From Haliotis asinina (lineage: Eukaryota; Mollusca; Gastropoda; Lepetellida; Haliotidae), in assembly GCF_037392515.1 (NCBI RefSeq), contig NC_090290.1:57176753-57240752 (forward strand): a stretch of DNA of 64,000 nt. Reading direction: 5' to 3'. This document shows positions 1 to 28,353 of this stretch, in pieces. Each line of letters starts with the position of its first letter. The first letter of the stretch is position 1. A model generated the notes under the pieces. That model saw only the letters and a list, made by a program, of their open reading frames with translations, ran no database searches and was not told the DNA's origin. Position numbers and translations under genes: made by a program.

Positions 1-979
1 TCCTCCTCATCTTCTTCGTCTTCCTCATCTTCTTCGTCTTCTAAACATATAGGAAGAATATTGTATTTCAAACCCGGACAAGACTGATTAGTTTGTGTTT
101 AAATCAAGGAAGTAAATTGGTCTTGTTTATTATATATTTACCAGTACACAGTATCATATTTTAGAAATCTTTACATCTTGTCCTTCACTAGTAGAATTTC
201 TGTGGCATGTAGGTAATAGAGGAAAAGCTAATGAAGGAACATAAACCGGAAATAGAAGGTAGTATTTCTAACCGTTTTCCTCATCTTCATCTTCGTCTTC
301 ATCACGTTTTCTTCGTTTTTCATCTTCATCTAGAATAATCATGTAATCTTTATTGCATTACAAGTCGTGAGGAACTAATTTGATAAGATGATGCGTTTTC
401 AGATAAAAGGTTTGAACGGAACGTGATAGTATTTCGAGGATTGAGCGGTATTTCATGCGAATATGGTAGAGTGAGTCTTAAATGTTTCTAATGATACTTA
501 TGTAAAGTGTTTATTCAAGAGATATTGCTTCTTTTGGTGTTTCTACCAGTTAAATATCTGTGGTGAGTGGTTAATGATTTTTTAAACGCAATAAATAATT
601 ACTGTGTTTTTTCTTTGAGAACTTTGCTTTATTTCTAACCTTCTGCATCTTCTTCATCCTCCTCATCTTCTTCATCGTCCTCATCTTCCTCAGCTTCTAC
701 ATCTTCTAAACATATAGGAAGAACATTGTGTGTTAAATCCATTTATAATATATACAAGAAATTAAAGTGAATTGGTCGTGGTTATATATTTACCAGTACA
801 TAGTATCGGATGGCAATATTTAGATCTTGTCTTTCACTAGTAGAATTTTTGTGGCATGTAGGCAGTGGAGGAAAATCTATTGAACCATTTCATGTGTTAT
901 ACAGGAGGTAGTTTTTCTAACCGTCTTCATCTTCATCTTCGCCTTCCTCACGTTTTCTGCGCTCTTCATCTTCATCTAG
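1..979 (-). repeat. Tandem duplication of a two-exon segment
   Basis: Bases 38 to about 333 match about 702 to 979. The match includes intron sequence as well as the two acidic exons; both copies carry CATATAGGAAGAA after the first exon and TTTACCAGTACA and CACTAGTAGAATTT inside the intron. Offset is about 650-665 bp. Exons 40-1 and 705-640 are one type; 329-273 and 975-922 are the other. Direct reading supports duplication of an exon-intron-exon unit; intron divergence shows it is not very recent. Confidence 0.7.
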
Positions 980-1745
980 AATAATCACATAATAGGTCAC
1001 TGCAACTCTGAAGACGTTCATAAAATCATCGTTTAAATGATTCAAGTGAATTCGAACTGTGTTCTATTGCGTAGAAATACATGATTTGATTTTCTTTACT
1101 TCTTGAAAAGGATGAATTCCAAATCTATACAATTTGCATCCTTAATATCTTGTCAGATCTTCACTATACTATTTTCTAAACTCCAAGACATGAACACGTT
1201 TTTTTGAAATCCTGACGGCCCACAAAGACGTAAATTTGACCATGCATATTTCTGCCAGGTATATTCACCAATATGATTTGCCCTCTTTCATCGTGATACA
1301 TGTTTACATTTTACCCAATCTCGTGCAAGTACAAGGAACAGCTTACCAAGCGTATTCATACCCAGAGTGACCTCGGGATCTAAAAACAAAACGGTGATAT
1401 CAGATGAAAATATAATACACCGATTTCCCCGACGAATTTGGCCGTTTTATTTTGAGGTACATATACTAGCAACCGCGTTTGTCAGCATTAAGACCAAAGA
1501 TCTGTGCGTATTATTCAAATGAATGTCTAATGAAGAACCTCAGTTGAAAAGGCCCAAAATACCCGACAGTTTAGTTTAAGATAAGATAACTGTAACCACA
1601 CGTGGAAATTATCCGTAGGTATTATCAATGAAAGTAGCTCACCGTCTCCAAATCTTGTTTGTTGCACGTGCCCATAGCGAAAGGCGCTGTTTGCAGCTGT
1701 ATAGCTGCTAGTGGCAAACACTACCAGCAGAATCTGAATGAGCAT
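1..1745 (-). CDS. Secreted Asp/Glu-rich acidic protein, 5' part of a multi-exon gene (runs off left edge)
   Basis: Gene model built by eye on the minus strand. Exon 1 is 1745-1643: ATG, a hydrophobic signal peptide (MLIQILLVVFATSSYTA), then RYGHVQQTRFGD, ending at donor G|GTGAGC. Exon 2 is 1379-1347 (33 bp, PEVTLGMNTL, donor GTAAGC). Acidic exons follow at 975-922 (54 bp, contains ERRKREEGEDEDED), 705-640 (66 bp, contains EEDEDDEEDEEDEEDA), 329-273 (57 bp, contains KRRKRDEDEDEDEEN) and 40 to beyond 1. Every internal exon is a multiple of three and every junction is phase 1, so one Asp/Glu frame stays open throughout; the three complete acidic exons share the donor GTTAGA. The product would be secreted, with long acidic runs broken by RRKR-like basic patches. 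I do not recognise the family. Acidic secreted proteins are known in mollusc shell matrix and calcium binding, but that role is inference. The C-terminus is outside the window. Confidence 0.6.
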
Positions 1746-1789
1746 CGTGTCCGTGCCTGTGTCTGATGGTATAGGTGGATGACGGCATC

Positions 1790-1799
1790 TTTATATATA
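1790..1799 (-). promoter_or_regulatory. TATA box of the acidic-protein gene
   Basis: The minus strand reads TATATATAAAG about 45-54 bases upstream of the ATG at 1745. That leaves room for a start site near 1765 and a short leader. Both carbonic anhydrase genes have a TATA-like element at the same distance from their ATG, which supports the call. Confidence 0.55.
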
Positions 1800-4700
1800 C
1801 CGTAGTGTGCACTCCAGCGTTGACGCTCTTGCAGCAGATGGGTCGTAAAAGCAACCTTATCATTCACGACTGAGTTCGTGAGATAAAAGATCTAAAACTA
1901 ATAAAATTTTAGTTTCTTTACTAATGCCATTTAAGGTCTTACTGTAGGTACTACTGTTAATTGTCTACTCACTTTATACATTATCAAGCAATGCAAGAAA
2001 ATAGTCTGGATGTTAGTAACTTCAAACTGACAAACACCATCTCAACACCAATTGCAGGAAGAGTTTCCTGATCTATCATTTAATAGAGGATGACATAAAC
2101 ATTGTTCTCTCGAGCTGAATATCAAGATTAAAATTATGTACCTGTGACATTAGTTGATATGTTTAAATATGATGACAGTACTGTTTCTACATAATTTTTA
2201 ATGCACTGAAGCCACGTACCACTGACTGGTAATATAGTGTATATGAAATCTTAGTGCCATCCATAATAGTGAAAGAAACGAAACGAAAACTTACCATAAC
2301 ATATACGTTGTGTCTTACTTGTTTGCTCATCACTTGTTCCCTAAATTGGTAAACTTTGTTACTCTTTTTCCTATTGTAATACGGTTTGAATATTGGCAAC
2401 CAGTGCCACAGAACATTTTCGACATGTGCACTACAAACCAAAAGTATGGGAACAACCTAAAATGTGACAGTCACATATAAATTAAAACGTGGTGCCGCCA
2501 TTTATTAAGTCAAAATGTAAGTTTTTGTGTGTTTAGTGGGCTCTTAATGAGTGAAATGAAACATTGTCATAAACAGCAAAAAACATGGGTTCTGAAAGTA
2601 CAGAAAATTTATCATAAGTATTTAAGCTTATGGCATATAGCTAGAGTACAAATGCGTTCTAACCAACTAAAAAAGGATTCTATTTAAACCGGTTTCACAA
2701 ATGCTGCTTGAATACACAGTACCACCTGTTGCAGCTGTGTCCCGACTGCACAAATGGTTTCCAGCATCTATCAATGCCATCAGACATGCACACTGAAGAG
2801 TACATGTGCTGATTCAGCTTCTCTTAGTTCCTGAACCTAGGCTTTGTGCTGCCCAGCGGCACCAGCCATAGAGAACGAACAAGATTGGAAGAATCCGAAT
2901 TGTAATAAATATTGCACAGTGGTGGTGACAACAACAGACTACTCTCAAACCATAAAGTGTCCAGGATGTTTAAACACTGGTCACCAAAACTTATTTGAAT
3001 GTCCAGTAGAAATGGGTTAAGACTGTTTCCAGTTGTTACATATGTGACGTCACTCTATTGTCTGCCATGTGTACCAGTTTAAAGGTCATTTAAAAAATAA
3101 AAGGTCATTTTGACATTTAGTTTTGATGACAGAAATATTGCCGATACTTTGAATATAATTTAAGAATCCCCGTAGCTCTCCATTCTTTAAAAATAATGTA
3201 TCTCGGCCCCGAAAAGATCCACACAGAGATATTTATTGCAATACACCATCAGTTCTGATAGATTGACCATAACCTCAAATCCTTCTGTATGACATGCATG
3301 TTGTTCAGTCATGTTGTAAATACTCGGGAGATGGTTACCTAAGACGGATCCCAATCCCTTTCTTCACTGAACAAAATATATTTAAAACAAATCTTAAATG
3401 AATGTGTCTATGCTTTTATGTCGTTAAACAAAAATAAACGTTTTATCAATTAATTTGCTCGAATATAAGAGGCTTGTTGGGCGATCTCATTTGTTTAATA
3501 TATTAGTCTCAGGCTTCAGGGTGACTGAATGAATATTTCAGCAGTAATCATTCGAGCAATATTCATGCCTTTGGTGTTTACATTTCACAATATCTGTTAA
3601 AGATATTTTTAAATTGAACGCATCACCAACAGACATAACATCCGATGCAATTCAAGTTTTATCTTTTACACCATGTTTTGTTGTTTTTTTAGGTGAACAT
3701 TTACACGTGTTTGTCACAAATGCTACCAGTGGGGCAGTACACTCACGCTCACATTTTCGTGAATACATCACTATGGATGGTATTTGATAAACACAAATTA
3801 ATACTTAAAAATAATTGTTAATAAAGTCGGAATCGGACATTTTCATTTTGCTGAACCGTCATTCCCGGCGAGATACTCATTTATGGGGTGATTCAGAGGA
3901 TTGGAATACCATTCACTGTGACTTGGTTGATTAAACTGATTTACACTTACACGGCTACCTCATGATATCCATCGCTGGTTTACCTGCTTCAAACTTGACT
4001 GTTGCCGAGAAGGAACAAGTCCGCTTTCTGTCTGAACTCAAGTCTAATATGGGTTGAATCCAGTTTCTTGTGAGTTGAAATAATGTTTTCTTTCCATTTT
4101 GTGGATGAAGACGACATACAAATGTTACGATTGTTACAAACGTGAAGAGGATTGCATGAAAGTGGCCAGACATATGTCATCCGTCTGTTCTTGAGGAATA
4201 ATTGAAGAAATAAAGACAATTTATTGCTGATATATAGTTAAAGTAATGGCGGAAATAGAAAAAAAGGTTTTTCGGCTGTTGGTCTGTATCACTATAATTT
4301 ACACAAATGCAAACAGGACATGTCAAAACATCTCACCTGGGCCTAACTGGGTATTCAGTGGGATGCGTAAGAGGTTATCCAGAAAAGAATGTTTATATAA
4401 TTACTCGTAAAATCGGGGAAAATTACGACTAGTACGACTAGATGTTGAAAACATTAGATCAGACTGTAGATGGTAATTAGGTCGCTCAGCCACGTATGAC
4501 GACGGAAAGTCAACTCAAATGGCATTAAATACATGCGCCGTCTACTGGCACATCTCAAAGATATTTTGAGCTTTTTTTCATATGAGTTGAATATGCCTCA
4601 TCTGTTGATTAACATCTTTCATGAAGTTTATGTCAAGATATGTGAAAGAGTATGATACCTGATAGCCACAGAAAAGCCGGAGATCGACATGATTAGATAC

Positions 4701-5686: not shown

Positions 5687-5908
5687 ACCCTTGTAACATC
5701 CTGGTGAGATAAATCGTCCGCCTTTCTGTGCTAATGAACATGTTCTGTATAGGTGGGGCAGTTTTCAAACATTTTATACGTGTAACCAGTTAAGGGACTC
5801 GACACATAAGTAATATTGTTCTTATAATATTTTATGTATCTTGATGCTTCCATTGTGATTAATGGTTTCGACATTGTCACATATGTATCCTTTTAAAGTG
5901 GGGGCGGT

Positions 5909-8900
5909 GCTTGTCTCAACCAATAAAGGTCCGTATTAGAATTAGTCTTCTGTAACCAATGCTTGTCTCAACCAGCGAAGGTCCATATTAGAATTAGTCT
6001 TAAGTAACCCATGCTTGTCTCAACCAGTGAAGATCCGTATTAGAATTAGTCTTCAGTGACCCATGCTTGTCTCAACCAGTGAAGGTCCGTATTAGAAGTA
6101 GTCTTCTGTAACCCATGCTTGTCTCAACCAGTGAAGGTCCGTATTAGAGTTAGTCTTCAGTGACCCATGCTTGTCTCAACCAGTGAAGATCCGTATTAGA
6201 AGTAGTCTTCTGTAACCCATGCTTGTCTCAACCAGTGAGGGTCCGTATTAGAGTTAGTCTTCAGTGACCCATGCTTGTCTCAACCAGTGAAGGTCCGTAT
6301 TAGAATTAGTCTTCAGTGACCCATGCTTGTCTCAACCAATAAAGGTCCGTATTAGAATTAGTCTTCTGTAACCCATGCTTGTCTCAACCAGCGAAGGTCC
6401 GTATTAGAGTTAGTCTTCAGTGACCAATGCTTGTCTCAACCAGTGAAGGTCCGTACTAGAATTAGTCTTCAGTGACCCATGCTTGTCTCAACCAGCGAAG
6501 GTCCGTATTAGAGTTAGTCTTCAGTGACCCATGCTTGTCTCAACCAGTGAAGATCCGTACTAGAATTAGTCTTCAGTGACCCATGCTTGTCTCAACCAGT
6601 GAAGGTCCGTATTAGAGTTAGTCTTCAGTAACCCTTGCTTGTCTCAACCAGTGAAGATCCGTATTAGAAGTAGTCTTCAGTGACCCATGCTTGTCTCAAC
6701 CAGTGAAGGTCCGTATTAGAAGTAGTCTTCTGTAACCCATGCTTGTCTCAACCAGCGAAGGTCCGTATTAGAGTTAGTCTTCAGTGACCCATGCTTGTCT
6801 CAACCAGTGAAGGTCCGTATTAGAGTTAGTCTTCAGTGACCCATGCTTGTCTCAACCAGTGAAGATCCGTATTAGAATTAGTCTTCAGTGACCCATGCTT
6901 GTCTCAACCAGTGAAGGTCCGTATTAGAGTTAGTCTTCAGTAACCCTTGCTTGTCTCAACCAGTGAAGATCCGTATTAGAATTAGTCTTCAGGGACCCAT
7001 GCTTGTCTCAACCAGTGAAGGTCCGTATTAGAATTAGTCTTCTGTAACCCATGCTTGTCTCAACCAGCGAAGGTCCGTATTAGAGTTAGTCTTCAGTGAC
7101 CCATGCTTGTCTCAACCAGTGAAGGTCCGTATTAGAATTAGTCTTCAGTGACCCATGCTTGTCTCAACCAGTGAAGGTCCGTATTAGAATTAGTCTTCTG
7201 TAACCTATGCTTGTCTCAACCAGCGAAGGTCCGTATTCGAGTTAGTCTTCAGTGACCCATGCTTGTCTCAACCAGTGAAGGTCCGTATTAGAATTAGTCT
7301 TCTGTAACCCATGCTTGTCTCAACCAGCGAAGGTCCGTATTAGAGTTAGTCTTCAGTGACCCATGCTTGTCTCAACCAGTGAAGGTCCGTATTAGAATTA
7401 GTCTTCAGTGACCAATGCTTGTCTCAACCAGTGAAGGTCCGTATTAGAATTAGTCTTCAGTAACCCATGCTTGTTTCAACCAGTGAAGATCCGTATTAGA
7501 ATTAGTCTTCAGTGACCCATGCTTGTCTCAACCAGTGAAGGTCCGTATTAGAATTAGTCTTCTGTAACCCATGCTTGTCTCAACCAGCGAAGGTCCGTAT
7601 TAGAGTTAGTCTTCAGTGACCCATGCTTGTCTCAACCAGTGAAGGTCCGTATTAGAATTAGTCTTCAGTGACCAATGCTTGTCTCAACCAGTGAAGGTCC
7701 GTATTAGAATTAGTCTTCAGTCACCCATGCTTGTCTCAACCAGTGAAGATCCGTATTAGAGTTAGTCTTCAGTGACCCATGCTTGTCTCAACCAGTGAAG
7801 GTCCGTATTAGAATTAGTCTTCTGTAACCCATGCTTGTCTCAACCAGCGAAGATCCGTATTAGAGTTAGTCTTCAGTGACCCATGCTTGTCTCAACCAGT
7901 GAAGGTCCGTATTAGAATTAGTCTTCAGTGACCCATGCTTGTCTCAACCAGTGAAGGTCCGTATTAGAATTAGTCTTCTGTAACCTATGCTTGTCTCAAC
8001 CAGCGAAGGTCCGTATTAGAGTTAGTCTTCAGTGACCCATGCTTGTCTCAACCAGTGAAGGTCCGTATTAGAATTAGTCTTCTGTAACCCATACTTGTCT
8101 CAACCAGTGAAGGTCCGTATTAGAGTTAGTCTTCAGTGACCCATGCTTGTCTCAACCAGTGAAGGTCCGTATTAGAATTAGTCTTCAGTGACCCATGCTT
8201 GTCTCAACCAGTGAAGGTCCGTATTAGAATTAGTCTTCAGTAACCCATGCTTGTCTCAACCAGTGAAGATCCGTATTAGAATTAGTCTTCAGTGACCCAT
8301 GCTTGTCTCAACCAGTGAAGGTCCGTATTAGAATTAGTCTTCTGTAACCCATGCTTGTCTCAACCAGCGAAGGTCCGTATTAGAGTTAGTCTTCAGTGAC
8401 CCATGCTTGTCTCAACCAGTGAAGGTCCGTATTAGAATTAGTCTTCAGTGACCAATGCTTGTCTCAACCAGTGAAGGTCCGTATTAGAATTAGTCTTCAG
8501 TGACCCATGCTTGTCTCAACCAGTGAAGATCCGTATTAGAGTTAGTCTTCAGTGACCCATGCTTGTCTCAACCAGTGAAGGTCCGTATTAGAATTAGTCT
8601 TCTGTTACCCATGCTTGTCTCAATCAGTGAAGGTCCGTATTAGAATTAGTCTTCAGTGACCCATGCTTGTCTCAACCAGTGAAGATCCGTATTAGAGTTA
8701 GTCTTCAGTGACCCATGCTTGTCTCAACCAGTGAAGGTCCGTATTAGAATTAGTCTTCAGTGACCCATGCTTGTCTCAACCAGTGAAGGTCCGTATTAGA
8801 GTTAGTCTTCAGTGACCCATGCTTGTCTCAACCAGTGAAGATCCGTATTAGAATTAGTCTTCAGTGACCCACGCTTGTCTCAACCAGTGAAGGTCCGTGT

Positions 8901-9770
8901 TAGAGTCAGTCTTCAGTGACCCATGCTTGTCTCAACCAGTGAAGGTCCGTATTAGAGTTAGTCTTCAGTGACCAATGCTTGTCTCAACCAGTGAAGGTCC
9001 GTATTAGAATTAGTCTTCAGTGACCCACGCTTGTCTCAACCAGTGAAGGTCCGTATTAGAATTAGTCTTCTGTAACCCATGCTTGTCTCAAGCAGTGAAG
9101 ATCCGTATTAGAGTTAGTCTTCAGTGACCAATGCTTGTCTCAACCAGTGAAGGTCCGTATTAGAATTAGTCTTCAGTGACCCATGCTTGTCTCAACCAGT
9201 GAAGGTCCGTATTAGAGTTAGTCTTCAGTAACCCTTGCTTGTCTCAACCAGTGAAGATCCGTATTAGAATTAGTCTTCAGTGACCCATGCTTGTCTCAAC
9301 CAGTGAAGGTCCGTATTAGAAGTAGTCTTCTGTAACCCATGCTTGTCTCAACCAGCGAAGGTCCGTATTAGAGTTAGTCTTCAGTGACCCATGCTTGTCT
9401 CAACCAGTGAAGGTCCGTATTAGAGTTAGTCTTCAGTGACCCATGCTTGTCTCAACCAGTGAAGATCCGTATTAGAATTAGTCTTCAGTGACCCATGCTT
9501 GTCTCAACCAGTGAAGGTCCGTATTAGAGTTAGTCTTCAGTAACCCTTGCTTGTCTCAACCAGTGAAGATCCGTATTAGAATTAGTCTTCAGTGACCCAT
9601 GCTTGTCTCAACCAGTGAAGGTCCGTATTAGAATTAGTCTTCTGTAACCCATGCTTGTCTCAACCAGTGAAGATCCGTATTAGAATTAGTCTTCAGTGAC
9701 CCACGCTTGTCTCAACCAGTGAAGGTCCGTGTTAGAGTCAGTCTTCAGTGACCCATGCTTGTCTCAACCA
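5909..9770. repeat. 52-bp satellite array, 74 units plus 14 bp
   Basis: Head-to-tail units starting GCTTGTCTCAACCAGTGAAG. First unit starts at 5909; the last partial unit starts at 9757, exactly 74 x 52 bp later, so the array has no net length change. Units differ at a few fixed positions: GTGAAG/GCGAAG, GGTCC/GATCC, GAATTAG/GAGTTAG/GAAGTAG, CAGTGACC/CTGTAACC/CAGTAACC. Variants recur with a 260-bp (five-unit) period from 7261 to about 8600. Read on the other strand, the unit resembles the end of the dispersed repeat found at 14562-14800 and 13007-13160. Confidence 0.97.
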
Positions 9771-10032
9771 GACAAAGCAACCAACTAACTATAGGTAAAA
9801 TACATTTGTAACTGCTCATGGGTTACATACAGAAGGCACACATACAAGTTTTATATAATTGTTGCTTTGAGACAGGAGTTATTTCTTCCTATTATTATGC
9901 TGCGTTCGCGTGTATGTAAAAGACACAATTTTGTTAGCTTACCGAGATGACAAGACTCACCTCCTCAAGAAACTTTACTTGGAAATAGGAGTCATAATGT
10001 CGTGGTTTTGCGAGAACGGATTTATCATGTAA
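9771..10032. other. Unique flank of the 52-bp array
   Basis: No gene or repeat recognised between the array end and the next repeat-like segment. Confidence 0.4.
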
Positions 10033-13242: not shown

Positions 13243-16200
13243 TTAGCAAGAAACTAGAACGGTGCGGTTGTTGAGAGGTTGGGTTGGTCTGTCGTTCGTG
13301 TCCACCGAAAGGGGTTCACCGCCACTGACTGGAACAGCTCTCAGCACGCGAATCTGAGGAAGTAACAAGTCACATATGAGGATAGTCATGGCTCGTCTGG
13401 AAGTACCAACACGACACGACCGAGGGAACGACAGAGATGCAAGCCATACATTTCTAGCAATGGTGAGAACGTCAACAGCATTTGATACCTCAGTATTAAC
13501 ACGGTTACTTATTCTTTTAATTGGATTTCCTCATTTGATACCTCTAAGTGCCATTTAAAAATTCTTAGTTCAGAAAAAATATCAAAGTGAAGAGCTTATA
13601 CATTTCAGACATAATAGTGAGTGAGTAGGGTGTTTACGCCGCTGTTCCAGGAATATCGATATCACGGCAGGGAACACCAGGAATGGGCTTCACACATTGT
13701 ACCCATGTAGGGAATCGAACCCGGTTCGTTAGCGTGAGAAGCAACGCCTTCACCATTAGGCTCAGATGTAAACCTATCGGAACAAAGTTTGCATAGTTGC
13801 ACATTGTACGCGTGACTTCCACTCCTTTAGTCAGATTTGATCATGATCTGACCACAGACCCCTAATGCCAACTTAGAAACGATGTCGTTCTCGTGCCACA
13901 TACATTGTATACCCAGCTAGGTCTTACCCTATCCTCTGTGGTGAGAAGTGGCAGCACCATCAGAACCCAGCGGACAGACTCCGAACAGGGCGGGGTGGTT
14001 AGCGAACCCTTGTACGTGTAGTAATCGTTGTCAAGCACCAACAGCTCGTTCGGGTCAAGGGTCACTTCCTCAGATTCCCCTGAAACAGAATTGGATCTCA
14101 ATACTGACGATGAGAGGTCTTGTTGAGCTGTCATATAGCTTCCACAATACTGAATAAGATCTGTCTGTATCACTCGTAACTCGTTTTTTATATACAATAG
14201 CATATAATGGATCATTATTCAATGTTCCTCTTCAATACATAGGGAATAGGAATTGACTGTGATGTATACATTTGATGCCCAGAATCATGATTGTCGTGAG
14301 GTTAGATTCCTCACATGGTGTGAAGCCCATTTCTGGTGTCACCCATTGTGATGTTGCGGCAATATTGCTAACAGCGGCGTAAAGCTAAACTCACTCACGT
14401 AAATCTCTGCAAAGATCAGATGATCCTCAAGAATGTATACATCCATTACGCTGAACACATGTGTAGACATCTCGACTATGAACCAAGGAAGTATATATAT
14501 ATATATAGTAATATATAAGTATATATATCTAATACAACGATACAAATGCGTAAGCACATCTACCCGTGAAGGTCCGGGTTAGAATATTGGCCTTCAGTAA
14601 CCCATGCTTGTCGTAAGAGACGACTGACGGGATCAGGTGGTCAAGCTCGGTGACTTGGTTGACATGTGTCATCGGTTCCCACTTGCGCAGATCGATGCTC
14701 ATGCTGTTGATCACTGGATTGTTTGGTTCAGTCCCGATTATTTACAGACCGCCGCCATGTAGCTGGAATATTGCGTAAAACTAAAGTCACTCACTCACTG
14801 TAAGCAGATGATGACATGTTCCTATCAACAACTCCTGAAATAACAAGTACAGCCCAAACCAATGAGTACGTGCTCAAGATTAATAGTGTATGTTTCTACC
14901 ATTCAGCGGTGACATTAGCTGGTTTAGTGTCACGTACGCTGTCAGCTGGCCATGACAATACACTTACCGACTTTTAGATGCGCCACTTCATCCACGAATG
15001 TGTTGAAGGCCTGGTTCACAGATTCACCGACTACCTGGAAAATGGTGAAGAAGACTGTCAGTTATCGGCGGCGTCGCTTTTGTTCACTTTAACACTTTGT
15101 CTTGTGATAAGCTGCTGTATTCTTTACTTACTAGAAACATGACATATTCGAGATAAATGACCATCAGTAATCACTTGAAAGGTCAGACAACCAGACTTGT
15201 CATCACTTGACAACAGTTTCAAAATATTTGCTGAATACTGTCAGAGAGGCATGTCGGACATGAAATCGCTCAGTTTAACTGAACATATTGCATAGAGATA
15301 TATAAACTGAGAAGAAACATTCTGTTCACTCCTCTGTTTTTCCTGGGCAGTATTTTAGTATAAAGGACCCGCAGAAGTAAATGTGAGATACTCGTTGAAG
15401 GCGGAGTTGGAAAAGACCAAATAAACAACTTTAACAAGGTAAAATAACCTGAAAACTTCATAATATCACGCTTAACATTTTTCGAACCCTGTAACTTTCA
15501 TCAGTCTTGTTTTCGGAGTTTATGCTCATAGCTGACACGTCCTGGCTGCCAAGGCGTCTTTTGGTCTATAGTTACAATGGTCACAAAAGGGCTCAAAGAT
15601 CGTTCACCTCCACGTTCGGTTTAGTCTGTGCGCATGATCTGAATCCTCTTACCATCAGGAACACTCCAATAACAGCCAGACCATCTGCCTTGTCAACGGC
15701 TCCTGCAACACTCCCATACTCCTTCTTGTAGTGAACCAGGTGCAACTACAACAACGACGGTGATGCTTTATGTTAAACAAGTAACGCATACCTCCCTCCC
15801 GCTTACCCACTCCCCCAACTCAGATGAAATAAAATAAATAAATTACAAAATACCCAAACTAAACAAAAGCAAAACCAGCAACAGCAAAAAGAAATAGAAA
15901 GGAAGAAACGAAACCAAAAACCCCTCTGGAGTCAACTGTATGTGTTTATCTGTATCCAGAGCACGTGTGCATGTATTATTATCGAATAGTCATGATAACA
16001 GGTATTCGCGAAAGGTATCAAATGTTATCAAAGAAATTATAAAATAGAAAACGGATTCTGTTCCATAAGACAACAACATGGATAGATAAATCTAACCCAA
16101 TTAATACCTTTGTTAATTTTTCTTCATTTCATTATATAATTATTCACTGTCAGTTACTCACAACTGACGAATTATTCCAGTAGGTAATTAAATAGTTTTA

Positions 16201-19200
16201 CCTCCCCATCCATGTGCTTGCCGTTGACGAGATGTTCCGAGGGAGAATGGAAGTGCATTGATCCCAGGACATATTCCCCGTCAGAGAAAGGGATGTCCTT
16301 CGTCACGAGACGTTCGTTTTCGAAGAAGGCCAGATTCGCACCATGGCCTGCGACAATACAACAGCATCAAACATGAAGAGTTTAGATCTAATCTATACTA
16401 TCCAATAGAATCAGCAATGCGAATGCCGTAATGTTAAGAATACCTGATGTCGTGTTTTGGCTAAAGAGGAATCACCCAAACAGGAAGCCAAAACACGACA
16501 CTGTCATGGAGACACTTGAGGTAATGTACCATATTATATTTTGTCTGTCGTTTAACGTTTCACTTCAGGGACAGTAGCATTGAGGTGTGGACCAGACAAT
16601 ACAGTGATTGTCATGTGAGCAACGACCTTCATTGTAAGGGTTCGTGTAAGCTGTAATTGTATGGAGTAGAACTGATCTGGCCTTAACATATCTATGCCGG
16701 AAGCAAATGTACTGTAAAGTCCCATGGCCCCTAGTATCTACCTTTAGTTGCTGCCGATCTATAGCATGTTTTGTACCCAGATGCTAGAAATATTCCAGCA
16801 GTATTGGAGCAGAGTAACACCAGATACATGTATGAAACATGTTGGGAATCAAACTCTAGCCTTTAGCGTGACTAGCAACAGTTTTTACCTCCATGTTACT
16901 CGGTCTCCGCTATACGTCTCAGAAATATGTAATATGTAAGATGTAATACAATACTTACTTGCTATAAAAATCAGTTGCGGGAAATGATTACACATTTTCT
17001 GGAGTAAATACCAACGCTGCTAATACTACATGCCATTATGAAAGTGAATTGTCTTGAGATTAAAGTACTGCACTAGATCATAAACACTCATTAGAAACTA
17101 ACTATGCTTATCTAATTTCAGCGAGTTGAGCATGTACTAGTTGCCTGAATATGTGCCAAATATAAATATCATATAAAAATGATATTACAGCCGATATTTG
17201 TAAATTAATTCAAAATATTACCATTCATTTTTAAAATCCCGGATACATCTCCTTTTGGTTCGTACTCGATGCCACCCAGAGGATAACACACAGCATCTCC
17301 ACTCGGTATGTCAATAGGGGACTGATTTGACCCATTGCAGCAGTGGGTGTCCTTGTCCAGATCGTACCAGTGGAAAGGATCTGCAACACAATATCCATCA
17401 TTTCAGTTCACGTTAAGCGTACTGCAGATCACTGATTGACTCATTATTGTTTACGCCGCACTCACCAATATTCCAGCGATCTGTAAATAATCTAATGTGG
17501 ACCAGACAATCCAGTGATCAAGAGCAGGAGCATCGGCCTAGGCAATTAGGATACAATGAAATGTGTCAACCGGGTCAGCGAGTCTGACATCCCAACCCGT
17601 TAGTCGTGCACAGGTTAATGAAGACCAATTCTAGCCCGGATCTTCAAGGTTAATGTGGGAGAATTTGATGCGTTTCTTGAATGTGTCCGGTGAAACCAAC
17701 GAGCACTGAACAAGCAAGAAAGCTAATCAGGGGGAGCTGATTTTCGATGTCAAGATCTTAATTTCAAGGACGCCTAAGACACGCAGCTGTACATAGCGAA
17801 TCTGTGCAGTGCAGGGTGTCGTTGTCCTAACGCTAAGGTGTTCGTAACTCCCACAGTATAACAGACTGTTACACCTGTCGTGGCGCTATAGCTGCTTTGT
17901 ACAACGGCGCCCAGATCCTTAAATGTTTCAATCCATTTGACGAAAGAGAGCTATGACCTGGGGTAATCGTAACGCCCATACATTATCATCTGGCCCAAGA
18001 CAGTCTAAAACAGCAATGTGGAAGATACCCGTGGTCCACTCGTCACCTCCTCAACTCGATAATGCTTGAAGGAAGACATTGGGATCAATACTTAATTTCA
18101 ATAATAAGTCTCTGAATGGCATTTTAAAGTCGCACACATACGCAAGAGAGGTTTTATGGATGTCAGCTAGGAAATTCTTTACTATGAGAAAAACAAGGTT
18201 ACGGAGTATGCCCCTAGTCATTCAGTCCGCAACGTTGTGTTCCTTGTAATAAAGAAGTTGACATCAATAATGACTCTTTTCCTGCAGGAAAAATAGAAAT
18301 TAAGTCTGACTACATTTTATGGGGAGTGATGGATGTGCAAGTATCATTAACTGGCAGTATCCAACAGTTCATTATGAGTGAGTGAGTGAGTTAAGTTTTA
18401 ACCTGCACTCAGCAATATTCCAGCTATGTGGCGGCCGTCTGCAAATAATCGAGTCTGGACCAGACAAACACTGATCAACGGCATGAGCCCATCTGCACAA
18501 CTGGGAATCTATGACATGTGTCAACAAGGTCAGTCAACTTGACCACCCGCCTCTTACGCCAAGCATTCATTCGGAAAATCATTCCACAACACTGGAGCTG
18601 TAACCTTAAAATACAGCACATCTCCCCCATATTGGTGGCGGTTCTGGAGACTGGAAGATCATTCCAAAAGCACTGTTGGATCGGAGAGTTCTACGTGAAG
18701 CTTTCAATGAAATGAGAGGTCTTAGACACTCAGGACCAATGGGATCATTCAGGACGGAATATGTGAGAGAAAACATCATCTGACTCGTTGTACAGAAAGC
18801 CAGTGTCGCTCAAGAAGGATTGATGTGATTTTACACTGCTTCCAGGAATCGGTGATGAGACGAGCAGATCAAGATGGAATGTTATTTTACTTGTTTGCAC
18901 AAGAGGTTTCAGACAATTCAAAGTCCGATATTTCTTGATGTTGCTGATATTGTCGAGACAGGGTGACACAGAACGACAGAAGGTGCTATTACGAATTGTT
19001 GTTCAGACAGGAGGAATGTTAGTTATATATAATTCCAACTTGCCCAGCACTATACCGGCAGATCCATTTACAGTAAAAAACATCTTTCCACCAATATATC
19101 ATAGAGTGTCGAATGCGCTCTGCTCAAAAGCTGCTTGGTGAGGGTTGTTGCCTTAATAAAGTTTGTAAAAGGTTAGTGGTAGATTTGTGAAAGACCTTTC

Positions 19201-19594
19201 AAAATATGACCTGTCAGGCACAAAAATGAATATCTGGTGCAAATGCTTATTTTCAAGAATGAAAACATGATGCAGTATGTTTTTTTCCTTCAAGCAGGCA
19301 CTTGCCCTTGCATGGTCCTTTTGGCGAACACTAAATTTCGTCAGCATGTGTGATTCCTCAACGTTTGAAATGGTCGACGTCGTCAAATGATTAAAGTGGA
19401 TATTTCTGAGACTTTTAGACATTTAAATAGCTTTTACTTGAAGAAAATAAGTACAATGCTTCAATCAGCTTACCGTCGTGGGAACCTGGGTGGTAGTCGA
19501 AGTGTATATGTTTTGACGGGATGGGACACAGGGCGTCTTTCGCAGTTGCGTAGACGCTGGCTGCAACGACAACTACAGCAATGGGAATCAGCAT
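13243..19594 (-). CDS. Secreted alpha-carbonic anhydrase, paralogue 1 (seven exons, 282 aa)
   Basis: Zinc enzyme hydrating CO2 to bicarbonate and a proton, predicted to act outside the cell. Exons: 19594-19474, 17380-17222, 16347-16202, 15745-15653, 15034-14968, 14079-13928 and 13353-13243 (TAA); 849 bp, all junctions GT..AG, in-frame. Residues 1-18 form a signal peptide ([16 protein letters not shown]). Family motifs: CCNGSNQSPIDI (exon 2), the NGH proton-shuttle region with His95, MHFHSPSEH (zinc ligands His125 and His127), LHLVHY (third ligand His144), and [18 protein letters not shown] (Thr223, Cys227). The Cys of exon 2 and Cys227 could form the disulfide typical of secreted forms. It ends VLVSC. 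Introns 1, 2, 5 and 6 carry dispersed repeats, which makes the gene 6.4 kb long. Paralogue 2 lies upstream in the same orientation. Identity as an alpha-carbonic anhydrase is secure; tissue and substrate setting are not visible. Confidence 0.95.
13617..13770 (-). mobile_element. tRNA-derived SINE in intron 6 of carbonic anhydrase 1
   Basis: Read on the minus strand: a tRNA-like head with a B-box-type motif GGTTCGATTCC (inside GAACCGGGTTCGATTCCC), then ACATGGGTACAATGTGTGAA, GCCCATTCCTGG, GATATCGATATTCC, GCGGCGTAAA and a CTCACTCAC end. The head and the ordered body shared with 14303-14398 point to a SINE. The A-box region is less clear (AGCCTAATGGTGAAGGCG). Confidence 0.7.
14303..14398 (+). repeat. 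3' fragment of the tRNA-derived SINE
   Basis: ATTCCTCACATGG, GTGTGAAGCCCATTTCTGGT, GATGTTGCGGCAATATTGCT, AGCGGCGTAAAGCTAAAC and CTCACTCAC follow the body order of the 13617-13770 copy without the tRNA-like head. It lies in intron 5 of carbonic anhydrase 1, in the opposite orientation to the copy in intron 6. Confidence 0.7.
14491..14530. repeat. TA-rich microsatellite
   Basis: Runs of TATATA, interrupted by GTAATATATAAG, inside intron 5 of carbonic anhydrase 1. Confidence 0.8.
14562..14800 (-). repeat. Dispersed repeat A, near full length
   Basis: Minus-strand order: TGAGTGAGTGACTTTAG, a TTTTACGC block, CAATATTCCAGCTACATGG, CGGCGGTCTGTAAATAATCG, GATCAACAGCATGAGCATC, GATCTGCGCAAGTGGGAACC, ACATGTGTCAACCAAGTC, CCCGTCAGTCGTCTCTTACG, ACAAGCATGGGTTACTGAAG and ACCCGGACCTTCACGGG. 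The best copy in the window; used as the reference for the others. No open frame. Probably a non-autonomous element (SINE or MITE). Its terminal 45 bp or so is the apparent source of the 52-bp satellite. Confidence 0.85.
16448..16500. repeat. Perfect 15-bp inverted repeat in intron 2 of carbonic anhydrase 1
   Basis: 16448-16462 (TGTCGTGTTTTGGCT) is the exact reverse complement of 16486-16500, separated by 23 bp. It would form a stem in the pre-mRNA. It could also be the end pair of a tiny decayed element. Confidence 0.9.
16757..16905 (-). repeat. Degenerate copy of the tRNA-derived SINE
   Basis: GGGAATCAAACTCTAGCCTT and AGCGTGACTAGCAACAG align with GGGAATCGAACCCGG and AGCGTGAGAAGCAACGCC of the 13617-13770 copy, in the same orientation. 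The B-box-like motif is damaged. Within intron 2 of carbonic anhydrase 1. Confidence 0.45.
17434..17652 (+). repeat. Dispersed repeat A in intron 1 of carbonic anhydrase 1
   Basis: TTTACGCCGCACTCACCAAT, ATTCCAGCGATCTGTAAATA, GGACCAGACAATCCAGTGAT, ATGTGTCAACCGGGTCAGCG, CCCGTTAGTCGTGCACAGG and CAATTCTAGCCCGGATCTTC in the reference order; diverged in the centre. Confidence 0.8.
18374..18568 (+). repeat. Dispersed repeat A, truncated, in intron 1 of carbonic anhydrase 1
   Basis: Starts with four GTGA-type units, then AGTTTTAACCTGCACTCAGC, CAATATTCCAGCTATGTGGC, AAATAATCGAGTCTGGACCA, GACATGTGTCAACAAGGTC and CGCCTCTTACG. It loses similarity after about 18568, so the satellite-like end is missing. 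Confidence 0.85.
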
Positions 19595-21230: not shown

Positions 21231-22211
21231 TTAATATTTTATCAAGTCTCCTTGAGCTTCACGGCACAGTCTAAGACGGGTAGGCATACTTCCTATCAGA
21301 GAGGTTAGTGTCTCGTGAGTTATGCTGTCCCAGTATCGGACCACTTCTCTCTTCATGTCTTCAATTTTTGTCAACCCCTTTTGATTCACACATTCCTTCA
21401 TCATCCCCCAAATGTTCTCAATGGGATTTAAGTCAGGACTATATGCAGGAAATGGTAATGCAGTCACATTTTTCTCCTGAAACCACTGCTTGGCATGTTT
21501 TGCGGTGTGTTTAGGATCATTATCTTGCTGCAAAATCCAGTCATTTCCATAAAACACATGTGCACTTGGAAGCAGAAAATTATCCAATATGTTAGTGTAG
21601 CGTTGACTTGTCAGATTTCCCTCAAACACACACAGCGGGGTCGTTCCTAATAAGGATATCCCTCCCCATACATGAAACTTTGGGCTGTATTTAGGTCGTC
21701 GATACAACGGTGCTGACGCAGACTTTGTCAATATTTTCACATTATTGGGATATACCCATATTGAGCTTTCATCAGTAAAAATCACATTTTCCCAGTCAAA
21801 GTTTTCATGTGCCAAACACCACTCAACACGCCTGTCTTTATGTTCTTGTTTCATGAGAGGAGAAAGAATTCCAGTCTTTTTCTCCCATCCAAGATCAATC
21901 AAATTTCTTCTAACTGTAGATTTTGATACAACTGTTGATCCCCTTTCTATCATTTCATACCTGATGTTGGAGATGCTTGCCCTTTGCTTTTTAGACGCTA
22001 AAATTCCCAGCCGGACGCGATCTGAGAAGTCCAATTTTCTGGGTCTCCCTGCTCCTTTCTGATGCCCCAAATCCTTTCCCTCTTTAAAATTCTTCCTAAT
22101 CCTATACACAGTAGAAAGAGGAGTTCCTGTTCTCTCTGCCAGTGTATTTACATCATCAATTCCTTGATTACACAACTCAAAAATCAACCTTCTTTTATCT
22201 TCAGCAGACAT
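21231..22211 (-). CDS. Tc1-like transposase, DD34E, 326 aa, full length
   Basis: Cuts and pastes the element carrying it; acts in the nucleus on the terminal repeats. Residues 1-50 form the first helix-turn-helix (with TPLSTVYRIRKNF), a GRPRKL linker motif lies at 55-60, and a second DNA-binding region follows at 70-110 (SKSTVRRNLIDLGW). The catalytic triad is complete: Asp147 in FTDESS, Asp230 in LQQDNDPKHT and Glu265 in SPDLNPIENIWG, with 34 residues between the last two, the Tc1 spacing. Length matches Tc1 transposases (about 340 aa). The ATG at 22211 is the first in frame and lies about 170 bp inside the right end. No stop or frameshift, so it may be active or recently so. Confidence 0.97.
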   Translation of the reverse strand: MSAEDKRRLIFELCNQGIDDVNTLAERTGTPLSTVYRIRKNFKEGKDLGHQKGAGRPRKLDFSDRVRLGILASKKQRASISNIRYEMIERGSTVVSKSTVRRNLIDLGWEKKTGILSPLMKQEHKDRRVEWCLAHENFDWENVIFTDESSIWVYPNNVKILTKSASAPLYRRPKYSPKFHVWGGISLLGTTPLCVFEGNLTSQRYTNILDNFLLPSAHVFYGNDWILQQDNDPKHTAKHAKQWFQEKNVTALPFPAYSPDLNPIENIWGMMKECVNQKGLTKIEDMKREVVRYWDSITHETLTSLIGSMPTRLRLCREAQGDLIKY

Positions 22212-24110: not shown

Positions 24111-24910
24111 CTCCAGTACTACAGCTTACATTCGCAAACTTGGTATGTGTATTTACCATGCTTTTGAACATTGTGATTGTAGGCCGAAAGTATTATCACA
24201 TTTTGTACTTCTCAAGTACTACAGCTTACATTCGCAAACTTGGTATGTGTATTCACCATGCTTTTCAACATTGTGAATGTATGCCAAAAGTATTATCACA
24301 TTTTGTACTTCTCAAGTACTACAGCTTACATTCGCAAACTTGGTATGTGTATTCACCATGCTTTTGAACATTGTGATTGTAGGCCAAAAGTATTATCACA
24401 ATTTGTACTTCTCAAGTACTACAGCTTACATTCGCAAACTTGGTATGTGTGTTTACCATGCTTTTGAACATTGTGAATGTAAGCCAAAAGTATTATCACA
24501 TTTTGTACTTCTCAAGTACTACAGCTTACATTCGCAAACTTGGTATGTGTGTTTACCATGCTTTTGAACATTGTGATTGTAGGCCAAAAGTATTATCACA
24601 TTTTGTACTTCTCAAGTACTACAGCTTACATTCGCAAACTTGGTATGTGTATTCACCATGCTTTTGAACATTGTGATTGTAAGCCAAAAGCATTATCACA
24701 TTTTGTACTTCTCAAGTACTACAGCTTACATTCGCAAACTTGGTATGTGTATTTACCATGCTTTTGAACATTGTGATTGTAAGCCAAAAGTATTATCACA
24801 TTTTGTACTTCTCCAGAAATACAAATTACATTCGCAAACTTGGTATGTGTATTCACCATGCTTTTGAACATTGTGATTGTAGGCCAAAATTGTTATCAAC
24901 CTTTGTACTA
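24111..24910. repeat. 100-bp tandem array, eight units
   Basis: Units begin CTCAAGTACTACAGCTTACA at exactly 100-bp steps from 24111 to 24811, with few substitutions and no length change. The first and last units both start CTCCAG rather than CTCAAG, and the last is more diverged (CAGAAATACAAATTACA; TTGTTATCAACC near its end), as expected at array edges. All open frames here are periodic artefacts. The array ends 106 bp from the stop codon of carbonic anhydrase 2, on its 3' side, so it may be transcribed into the 3' UTR. Confidence 0.97.
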
Positions 24911-25015: not shown

Positions 25016-28000
25016 TCAGCATGTGACATAGACGGTGCGGCCGTTGAGCGGTTGGGATGGTCTGACATTTGTATCAACGTAGAGAGGTTCGCCGTCACTG
25101 ACTGGAACATCCTTTAGCACGCGAAGCTTAAAAGAAACAACAGTGTCACCTTTGACAGTAAAGATAATGATCAACGGAGAATCTAAACTTTCACAAAAGT
25201 TAACTTTATGGATTCGTTTCCGTGATAGGTAGAGTTTATTTGCCTTTTAAACTTCCCATTAACATTATAATAAAATGGAACAAGGTTGTAAGCTGATAAT
25301 ACCAAGACGCCAATGACTAAGACTTTTCAAATCAACATGGCTGGTTGACTGAATCCCATGGCACTCTGGAGGTGAGGACCGTCGCCCACACCTGTCTTGC
25401 CCACAGTTGCTTACACGACGTTCACTCACAGTTTGCAGAATGTTTTGTGAGACGTGAATCAGCAAACGCATTTAAAAATAATCTTATTCTGTGTGAAGCG
25501 TTAAAAAACAAGCACATTTAAATAAATCTTACTCTGTCTGCTGTGGTGCTGATAGGGTCTTTCATAACAACCCATCGGACAGACTCCGAACATGGCGGGG
25601 TGGTAAGCGAGCCCTTGTACGTGTAGTAATCGCCATCACGAAGCAGCAGCTGACGCGGGTCCAGACTCACTTTCTTAGGTTTATCTAAAACATGGCAACA
25701 GAGATACATCTCAGTACTGAAGGAGATAAATCTAGCGATCAGTCATTGATTTTTCGTCATACAGTCTACCCTGGCTGATACGCCGCAATTTGTCCTTGAT
25801 GATTTGGATATGGAACTGGGTTGCCTTACAATCAGGGACGCCATACTCGCACAGAACCATTAAGAAAAACACGTACATTTGATGAAAGTCAGAATACTAA
25901 AGAAAATTAATCAAGGTGATCAGTCATGTCACTATTCATGGATACAAACAAATACACATCATGCTACTTCCAAACGAACGAAAATGCGCATTTTCCATTG
26001 ATGCTTACACGCCTTTAATTTGTCATACCATTGTCTCATTAACATAGGGTGCATATTGCAGCCCACTGAATACAATCACCACAAACCACGTATTTATCAT
26101 TAGACTTGACCCCATTTCACACAGAAACCTTGTAGCATGTACCTACCGCCTTTCAGAGCGGACACTCCATCAACAAACCTGTTGAAAGCATTGTTCTCCG
26201 ACTTCCCTCTTACCTGCAGGAAATATGGAGGAGTCTGGGTCACGACAGTTCCCCTTCTACGATTACTGTTACATGTATATTAATTATAGCATTTGGATAA
26301 GATTACTTACTTACGGGATTTGAGAAGTATCTGTTCTGCCTGAATATTGTTGCTCTCGCGAGGGCATGCATCGATGTAACGCTAATATATATATATGAAA
26401 CAACTCTAAAATACGCGAGAGTGTTTAAGCAATGCAACAGTAGCACAATACATAAAGATGGAAGCTGGAAACATCTGTTCTGCTTGAGTAATAGAGATAT
26501 GTCATTTCAGTGCTCATCTATTATGTTTGAAAACTTAACAGACTCGGGCATGCGACGACGACACCATGTGTATCTCACACAAATATATAATGTATGTCAT
26601 ACAATCCGATCGTTTACGATCCATCCAGTATTGACAGATGTTTATCTGTACCATATGTTCGGCTTAGTCTGAGCTGAATCCTCTTACCCTCAGGAACACT
26701 CCAATAACAGCCAGACCATCTGCCTTATCAACGGCTCCTGCAACACTCCCATACTCCTTCTTGTAGTGAACCAGGTGCAACTACAAACGTATGGAAATTA
26801 CATCGGAAATAAATATGCAATGTTGGTCCAGAGGACGAAACATGTGTTAGCACAACAAAACAGTTAGTTTACTGTGGACCACAGTATGAGTTAGAACAGT
26901 GCAATCAGACACTGACAATCAAGCATGTACAAGTCTGTCAATGAATAGGTCCCGGCCACCAATATCTCTCGTATAACTCGAATAAAAGGCACAATAAGTA
27001 GGTTTCAATTACTGATGCAGAGGAGCAGACTGAGGCATAAGGGTTATGCCACACGATTTGTGCAAAAACACCTATTGTGTACTTCCACCACTCCAGACAT
27101 CTGTCAGAATACTGAATGTTAGTTTTCCTATTTTGCATTAAATTGTTACATCTTCACTCTTGTAGAGATTGTAAAATGGACAATAAACCACATGTCTTGC
27201 CCCTACCTCTCCAGCGTGATGCCTGCCGTTGACGAGATGTTCTGAGGGAGAATGGAAGTGCATGGAGGCCAGGACATACTCGCCGTTAGTGAAAGGGAAG
27301 TCCTTCGTCACGAGGCGATCTTGTTTGAAGAAGGCGAGACTCGCGCCATGGCCTGCAGTCATAGCAGTATTAGTCTGGTCAGACTTCCTTTCTGGAATCT
27401 CATTTTAATGCAAAACAGAAATTTGTTTACAACCTAAATGGAGATGTGCCTGAGCCCATCTTACATCATTCCATCAACAATATGACTGGAATTCTTCTTA
27501 CCATTTCTCGTGAGAAAGCCTTTTAATTGTCTTCGACGCTTGAATTCGTACTGCATGGGGTCTAGCTTGGCACATTTTGTGTCCTGTGTCTCGATGTTGA
27601 TGGGAGACTGTTTCGACCCGTCACAGCAGTGGGTGTCCTTGTCCAGTTCGTACCAGTGAAATGGATCTGAAATGTAAATTACATGGCTTTATTCTATGAA
27701 ACTGAAGCACAAACATCACGTGACCGCTAGACTTGGCGTGGTGAATCCAAAGGGTATTTTGCAGAGAAAAAAACCCACAAAATAATCACGGCTAATCTGG
27801 GATTCGAAGACACGATCAAAGATTTCTGCCTTTATTACGCCATAATTATTTTTTCCTATTGAAAACATCTGCCAGCGTTGGTCAGCAACGCCCCATGATC
27901 GTTAGACAGACTCCCTCCTGTTAGACGTTTGGGATAACTGTAATGACTCTGAAAACAGATGATGCTGCAATGGTTCAGTCTGATGTTTTCAACACAGTTT

Positions 28001-28353
28001 TTTGTCGAATTATGGATCAATCATGTTTTTGTTGCCTTCTTCATCAATACCACAGTTTCCACCATAATTTTCGACTTTATTCAATGTGAGACTATCGAAT
28101 ACGAGAGGCATATTCTATGTATCATTCAAACGTCGTTCAGAACAATCGTGGTTCACCAATCAGAATCCAGGATCAGTTCCATGTTGGATGAGACCGTCTC
28201 TACAAGACTGTTGTTAAATGTAATAAACTCACCATCCACGGATCCAAAGTGGTAGTTGAAATGCACTTTGTGAAGGGGTACAGGGCACAAGGCCCTCTCG
28301 GCAGCCACGTAGACGTCGGTTGCAACTACAACGACAGCAATTGGAATCAACAT
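25016..28353 (-). CDS. Secreted alpha-carbonic anhydrase, paralogue 2 (seven exons, 284 aa)
   Basis: Zinc enzyme interconverting CO2 and bicarbonate; predicted secreted. Exons: 28353-28233, 27666-27502, 27352-27207, 26780-26688, 26213-26147, 25684-25533 and 25126-25016 (TGA); 855 bp, all GT..AG and in frame. Six of seven exon lengths equal those of paralogue 1; exon 2 is 6 bp longer. A signal peptide ([18 protein letters not shown]) is followed by [10 protein letters not shown]. Motifs: [15 protein letters not shown] with proton-shuttle His97, MHFHSPSEH with zinc ligands His127 and His129, LHLVHY with third ligand His146, and [18 protein letters not shown] with Thr225 and Cys229. All catalytic residues are kept, so it should be active. 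The C-terminus is VYVTC, again a terminal Cys, possibly for a disulfide. Introns are short and lack the dispersed repeats seen in paralogue 1. Assignment secure; the physiological role (shell, gill or other) is not shown. Confidence 0.96.
26985..27115 (-). repeat. Inverted partner of 20212-20282, in intron 3 of carbonic anhydrase 2
   Basis: 27074-27115 matches 20212-20250 in reverse complement almost perfectly. The minus-strand frame reads [12 protein letters not shown] and continues through [15 protein letters not shown]. No splice signals make it a credible exon of the carbonic anhydrase gene. Confidence 0.55.

Follow-up and report, generated by a model that had tools for sequence, protein, structure and literature searches.

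A candidate secreted polyacidic protein gene built on a tandem two-exon array among carbonic anhydrase genes of Haliotis asinina

Analysis of a 64,000-nucleotide stretch of the Haliotis asinina genome (C11:57176753-57240752, hereafter the window, from an assembly of 1.14 Gb in 159 contigs) and of its surroundings points to a minus-strand gene for a polyacidic protein that extends from C11 57178497 to 57129682. The window holds only the 5' end of this gene, and most of its coding part lies to the left of the window in an array of about sixty near-identical exon-plus-intron units. In all, 251 kb of sequence around the gene were read, including the 100 kb left flank of the window. Since no run of 10 or more N occurs within these 251 kb, the assembly spans the array without a gap, although the true copy number still depends on that assembly. 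With middling confidence, we interpret the locus as encoding a recently amplified secreted polyacidic precursor whose probable cleavage at RRKR sites would yield peptides of 34 residues that serve in the handling of calcium carbonate. Judged from its sequence, the gene is a candidate for calcium or shell chemistry.

The architecture of the gene is of a kind already known and its product appears to be new. Neither the two-exon unit nor an array of this scale nor a carbonic anhydrase (CA)-like first exon on a polyacidic gene turned up in literature searches. Additionally, searches with N- or C-terminal sequence gave no related public protein at E <= 1 in the length ranges of 126-400 and 497-1580 aa; as the search covered these lengths only, an annotated long form may exist. 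The window contains no Rfam family at gathering score and no tRNA.

The first exons, the tandem array and the joined protein

A preliminary description of the window had read six exons by eye from positions 1-1745 of the minus strand, and all six pieces were recovered there with an exact match and in one frame. The TATA box that it placed upstream of them is present at 1799-1791 (TATATATAA, minus strand, read directly), 46 bases 5' of the ATG. Exon 1 (1643..1745, 103 nt) contains the ATG and a signal-peptide-like start (MLIQILLVVFATSSYTAANSAFRYGHVQQTRFGD) and ends in phase 1; its signal peptide, which the preliminary description had also proposed and which the sequence supports, was assigned on visual inspection and on its resemblance to the first exons of CA genes. 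This exon is followed on the same strand by exon 2 (1347..1379, 33 nt, DPEVTLGMNTL), by exons A1 (922..975, 54 nt, DEDEERRKREEGEDEDED) and B1 (640..705, 66 nt, EDVEAEEDEDDEEDEEDEEDAE) of a first, diverged unit, and by exon A2 (273..329, 57 nt, DEDEKRRKRDEDEDEDEEN), which is the first array-type A exon; these four are all of phase 1-1 and bounded by AG and GT. Exon B2 (EDEEDEEDEEDEEDEVDEE) has 40 nt inside the window (1..40) and ends 17 bases outside it, at C11:57176736, with the donor GTAAAA. AG is found at 5/5 acceptors (exons 2, A1, B1, A2 and B2) and GT at 5/5 in-window donors.

Left of the window this arrangement continues as a tandem array of a unit of approximately 787 bp that contains two 57-nt, phase 1-1 exons, A (DEDEKRRKRD[E/D]DEDEDEED) and B (identical to B2), both with few variants. 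With a scan of the left flank for two acceptor contexts, A and B exons each total 61 copies across 47.6 kb, 59 of each lying outside the window. The first A exon is located at C11:57177727 and the last at 57130199, and array exons reach down to 57130143. When measured from A exon to A exon there are 60 units, 58 of which are 783-790 bp long and carry 5-16 substitutions relative to a 787-bp consensus. The two odd units are the diverged first one (646 bp) and one of 1304 bp that lacks an A exon. There is no clear higher-order period, with mean differences of 14.1, 11.6 and 11.2 at lags 1, 2 and 3 and a range of 11.2 to 15.2 over lags 1-12. Coding exons are repeated together with near-identical introns, as in known tandem exon-plus-intron array genes. 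Chance acidic open frames were considered and ruled out, given a two-exon unit present in about 60 copies and a diverged unit in which the frame and most of the charge are retained.

When the genome was searched with window positions 1-1,800, further unit copies also came up to the left of the window. This search recovered part of the array only, so that its 31 matches are a lower bound; of these at least 31 matches, 11 are at the polyacidic locus, while the remaining 20 coincide to within two bases with acidic exons of the query. A second genomic copy of the gene is not supported by this search, in which the 20 off-locus matches, themselves a lower bound, include none on exon 1 or the introns.

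Acidic runs alternate with RRKR patches along the array, as had been described for the first exons. RRKR is present in 61/61 A exons, and the acid blocks between these sites are 34 residues long with 32 acidic residues. Intact AG, GT and open frame are kept in 118/122 A and B exons, the exceptions being two A exons with the donor AT, one B exon with the acceptor GG and one A exon with an in-frame TGA. The preliminary description had further proposed that internal exons are multiples of three in symmetrical phase 1-1, a design in which exons can be duplicated or skipped safely. At the sequence level both parts of this proposal hold across the recurring two-exon unit: because all internal exons have this form, copy number can change and broken exons can drop out without a frameshift, and each of the four broken exons and the one missing A exon could be skipped or be absent in this way.

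The two exon types differ in their donors, which read GTTAGA in 59/61 A exons and GTAAGA in 58/61 B exons. By the general donor consensus the A donor is the weaker one, and A exons, which carry RRKR, may therefore be skipped more often. Read-through past an A exon meets Gly-stop in 59/61 cases and, where the donor is lost (2 cases), Asp-stop; AATAAA lies 141 nt after the A donor in 54/61. As the array is homogenised, this recurring pattern of stop and AATAAA counts as little more than a single observation, and it is absent from the first unit as aligned.

The last B exon is followed by the A exon with the in-frame TGA and then by a candidate terminal exon (C11:57129743-57129682, minus strand) that encodes DQEEVHGLHSSETECKCEAM and a stop in the same phase with AATAAA close behind; either of these two exons would close the frame. 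Joining 121/125 exons, with the four broken ones (two A exons with donor AT, the B exon with acceptor GG and the A exon with TGA) left out, gives a protein of 2,309 aa with 58 RRKR sites. The presumed mature part, after an assumed 18-residue signal, has 2,291 residues, of which 82.8% are Asp or Glu (48.6% Glu and 34.2% Asp), and a charge count of about -1606. If expressed at length, it would to our knowledge be among the most acidic large proteins. The joined protein combines the extreme Asp/Glu content of very acidic shell matrix proteins with a secretion-type start, the latter judged by eye and by CA likeness. At the sequence level it also has the R-X-K/R-R sites repeated between repeats that characterize furin-processed precursors, and we take RRKR to be an exact furin-type motif.

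Comparison of exons and introns among the units suggests that the cassette is constrained. Among 58 units, 8/114 exon sites vary as compared to 86/665 intron sites, and all exon columns are free of gaps. Exons show 8 variant types versus 18.4 expected from the intron spectrum (Poisson P 0.0056; 58/60 units) and 3 charge-changing or stop types versus 12.6 expected (P 0.0014), with these P values serving as guides only because copies in an array are not independent. The 8 types comprise three changes of Asp to Asn, three of Glu to Asp and two that are silent. Splice-site positions taken alone have no visible protection, as 2/8 vary, each change occurring in one or two units. The diverged unit 1 is 87% and 82% identical to an array unit in its exons as compared to 75% and 60% in its introns, and its exon lengths differ by 3 and 9 nt. 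With the P values read as guides, exon variants that are fewer than introns predict, above all charge-changing ones, point to a charge-constrained cassette.

Carbonic anhydrase neighbours and the 5' end of the gene

Eight alpha-carbonic-anhydrase loci, recognised through similarity to the final portion of the CA domain, occur on C11 between 57.07 and 57.39 Mb, and all are on the minus strand, as is the polyacidic gene. Six of these are upstream of the polyacidic gene and two downstream; two of the upstream loci are outside the sequence read and a third was read in part. The window contains two secreted-type genes on the minus strand, one at 13243..19594 that corresponds to the public H. asinina protein P0011 (282 aa) and the other at 25016..28353 that corresponds to P0001 (284 aa), with the low coordinate of each being the end of the open frame that holds the last exon. 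Some of the eight loci look broken, with stops in or near the domain match. Partly degenerate CA copies were observed at C11:57264500-57282000 and 57310633-57310819, with one fragment on the plus strand. The cluster is a family with recent gains and losses.

The stretch from the TATA box through exon 1 of the polyacidic gene resembles the corresponding region of these neighbours. Its local alignment scores against four CA first exons, one of which belongs to a degenerate copy, are 59, 53, 51 and 53, as compared to maxima of 32, 37, 34 and 39, each from 300 shuffles; for a fifth copy, which is fragmentary, the score is 34 (p 0.007). When both strands of the 251 kb were searched, the four best non-self matches were the CA first exons, aligned ATG on ATG with E values of 3e-4 to 2e-3. 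This likeness surfaces under sensitive scoring only, as standard match/mismatch scoring returns no CA first exon at E <= 1. With the coding part of exon 1 alone, three CA copies rank in the top four, level with a non-CA place, and the fourth CA copy has an E value of 0.97; with the promoter part by itself, no preference for CA genes is seen. The splice from exon 1 to exon 2 is of phase 1 with the residues D|DP in both gene types. Alignment of exon 2 with exon 2 of five CA genes, which includes the splice acceptor in the aligned part, gave p values of 0.008, 0.004, 0.07, 0.31 and 0.32, a weak indication that exon 2 may be a remnant of CA exon 2. Taken together, the comparisons make a CA-derived 5' end of the polyacidic gene likely, though not proven.

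No Pfam family was found at E <= 1 in a 181-aa version of the polyacidic protein, which is thus without a CA domain. With no such domain, with a candidate terminal exon of its own that has a stop and AATAAA, and with four other acidic stretches in the 251 kb of which none is like A or B, the possibility that the acidic exons are an insert in a CA gene was ruled out. A separate acidic run of Asp followed by Glu, unlike A and B, is present in an open frame at C11:57112551-57112673 (minus strand), between the polyacidic gene and the next CA locus.

Several other features were recorded in the same region. A 47-bp satellite takes up window positions 30603-64000 (710.6 copies in the window, 89% matches) and continues to about C11:57250177, which gives it a length of approximately 43 kb; a further match lies at 57292532. 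There is a 52-bp tandem array at window 5908-9771 (74.3 copies) and a 100-bp tandem array at 24111-24909 (8.0 copies) in which overlapping open stretches run through several units. At window 21231-22211 (minus strand) there is an intact open frame of 326 aa that, by its motifs, resembles a Tc1/mariner-type transposase.

Possible roles of the product and competing explanations

The precursor model that we favour starts from what the sequence shows: a TATA promoter and signal-peptide-like exon, which resemble those of the neighbouring secreted CA genes, stand before a cassette of A (acid-RRKR-acid) and B (acid only) that has been duplicated with its introns as a unit of approximately 787 bp and kept homogeneous. 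The chain would be secreted, and a furin-type convertase would cut after RRKR to yield dozens of copies of a peptide of about 34 residues, 32 of them acidic. As dozens of peptides would be released from each chain, unit number would set the polyacid dose per transcript. Within the mantle and shell system, Ca2+ or calcium carbonate at an early stage may be bound by these peptides, with the neighbouring CAs supplying bicarbonate. Work on the shell bears on this model from both sides. Carbonic anhydrases and very acidic proteins are both reported from the H. laevigata shell (PMC6003135). Two observations count against the mineral reading, namely that a 2010 H. asinina shell proteome reported only one acidic protein, Has-Sometsuke with a pI of 5.6 (PMC2989941), and that the secreted mantle enzyme htCA1 had no match in the H. 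laevigata shell (PMC6003135). The portions of these two shell studies that were accessible (PMC2989941, PMC6003135) do not describe the polyacidic gene. Polyacidic peptides would probably be hard to see after trypsin.

The conservation of RRKR in every A exon fits cleavage and a polyampholyte alike, and a somewhat doubtful alternative is that the secreted chain stays uncut as a long polyampholyte, in which KRRKR patches separate acid blocks of some 34 residues and would link chains by charge; the result would be a gel or coacervate formed by the chain alone or together with basic shell proteins. Acid blocks and basic patches do alternate regularly, and acidic residues directly after RRKR might hinder a convertase. 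A suitable partner may exist in the highly basic H. asinina shell protein HasCL10contig2, with a calculated pI of about 12 (PMC2989941). However, a gel former would need its basic residues in any order only, which argues against this alternative when an apparently exact furin-type RRKR is kept in all 61 A exons behind a signal-peptide-like start. The polyacid could also be secreted or stored in granules outside the shell, serving some other gland or tissue as a calcium store, a counter-ion for cationic peptides or a buffer. Its net charge of about -1606 over 2,291 residues would suit any polycation or Ca2+ partner, but the position of the gene among secreted CA genes of a shell builder and its first-exon likeness to them point weakly to shared expression, and we regard a non-shell role as somewhat unlikely.

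A different kind of explanation, which we consider unlikely, is that the array is mostly a satellite-like expansion with passenger exons, the real product being short (the signal exon, exon 2, one or few units and the terminal exon) or the locus unexpressed. Consistent with this explanation are the 58/60 units of 783-790 bp, each with 5-16 departures from the consensus that affect introns and exons alike, the 4/125 exons that are broken, the other satellites nearby and the lack of a public protein within the lengths searched (126-400 and 497-1580 aa). Such passenger exons are nevertheless difficult to reconcile with exon variant types that are fewer than introns predict, charge-changing ones above all, and with exons that have no gap column and keep AG, GT and open frame in 118/122 cases. 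Finally, an improbable extension of the precursor model is that a CA-type promoter and signal exon together with a cassette of about 60 units could form a genetic dose ladder in which each A exon is able to end the message. Splicing, skipping and intronic polyadenylation would then produce graded secreted polyacids of tens to about 2,300 residues, furin would turn every form into near-identical 34-residue calcium-binding peptides, and array length would be a heritable dial on shell chemistry.

If expressed at length, the gene would present an array where unequal crossing over alone could change polyacid dose. It would also offer a birth story for an orphan secreted gene, in which a CA 5' end was joined to an acidic cassette within the same cluster, and a genetic entry point to the very acidic polymers of molluscs for calcium carbonate control. 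Genes of this type may be overlooked because repeats are masked, mapping is ambiguous and tryptic peptides are poor.

Comparison with known systems

Small symmetric exons that encode charged repeats are common to the abalone gene and to the PEVK region of titin, which has many such exons and charged, disordered repeats. However, titin is a cytoplasmic muscle protein that is not secreted, and PEVK is not known to be an array of near-identical units. Large repetitive secreted proteins made from iterated exon-intron units are shared with spider silks, although silk is not known to be polyacidic and silk exons are large. As far as the accessible descriptions go, the closest precedents for the iteration itself are Flag and Argiope MaSp2 of spiders, with near-identical successive introns (PMC1885213), and SmPoMuc of Schistosoma mansoni (PMC2576457). 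The latter has a signal peptide followed by a 27-bp exon and introns in tandem units of approximately 1 kb, with at most about 20 copies in the genome, transcripts that hold as many as 100 repeats and a repeat number that varies; its introns are homogenised to over 94% identity, and its authors liken the genes to spider silk (PMC2576457). Judged by architecture alone, SmPoMuc and the abalone gene are alike in that a small exon is repeated with introns in near-identical units behind a signal peptide. They differ in that SmPoMuc has one 27-bp exon per unit of about 1 kb while the abalone gene has two 57-nt exons per 787-bp unit in about 60 units, and in that the abalone gene has an acidic product with RRKR and a CA-like first exon. 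The schistosome micro-exon genes (MEGs) likewise encode secreted proteins from short exons of 3-81 bp between long introns (PMC10526429). By their description these exons are regularly interspersed, as opposed to the homogeneous two-exon tandem array of the abalone gene.

The neighbouring CA genes for P0001 and P0011 share with the polyacidic gene the TATA-to-signal-exon stretch, the phase-1 first splice and D|DP. The 181-aa version of the polyacidic protein is unlike P0001, P0011 and nacrein, the last of which has a named repeat domain (PMC2989941), in that the CA domain is absent. With aspein, asprich and the Haliotis proteins idb_22086 and Tri_57798 (PMC6003135) the product shares a highly acidic, repetitive and disordered-looking sequence of molluscan origin. 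These proteins are Asp-dominated according to the accessible descriptions, whereas in the abalone product Glu (48.6%) exceeds Asp (34.2%). The regular RRKR sites and mini-exon array further distinguish the abalone product from proteins of the aspein and asprich type.
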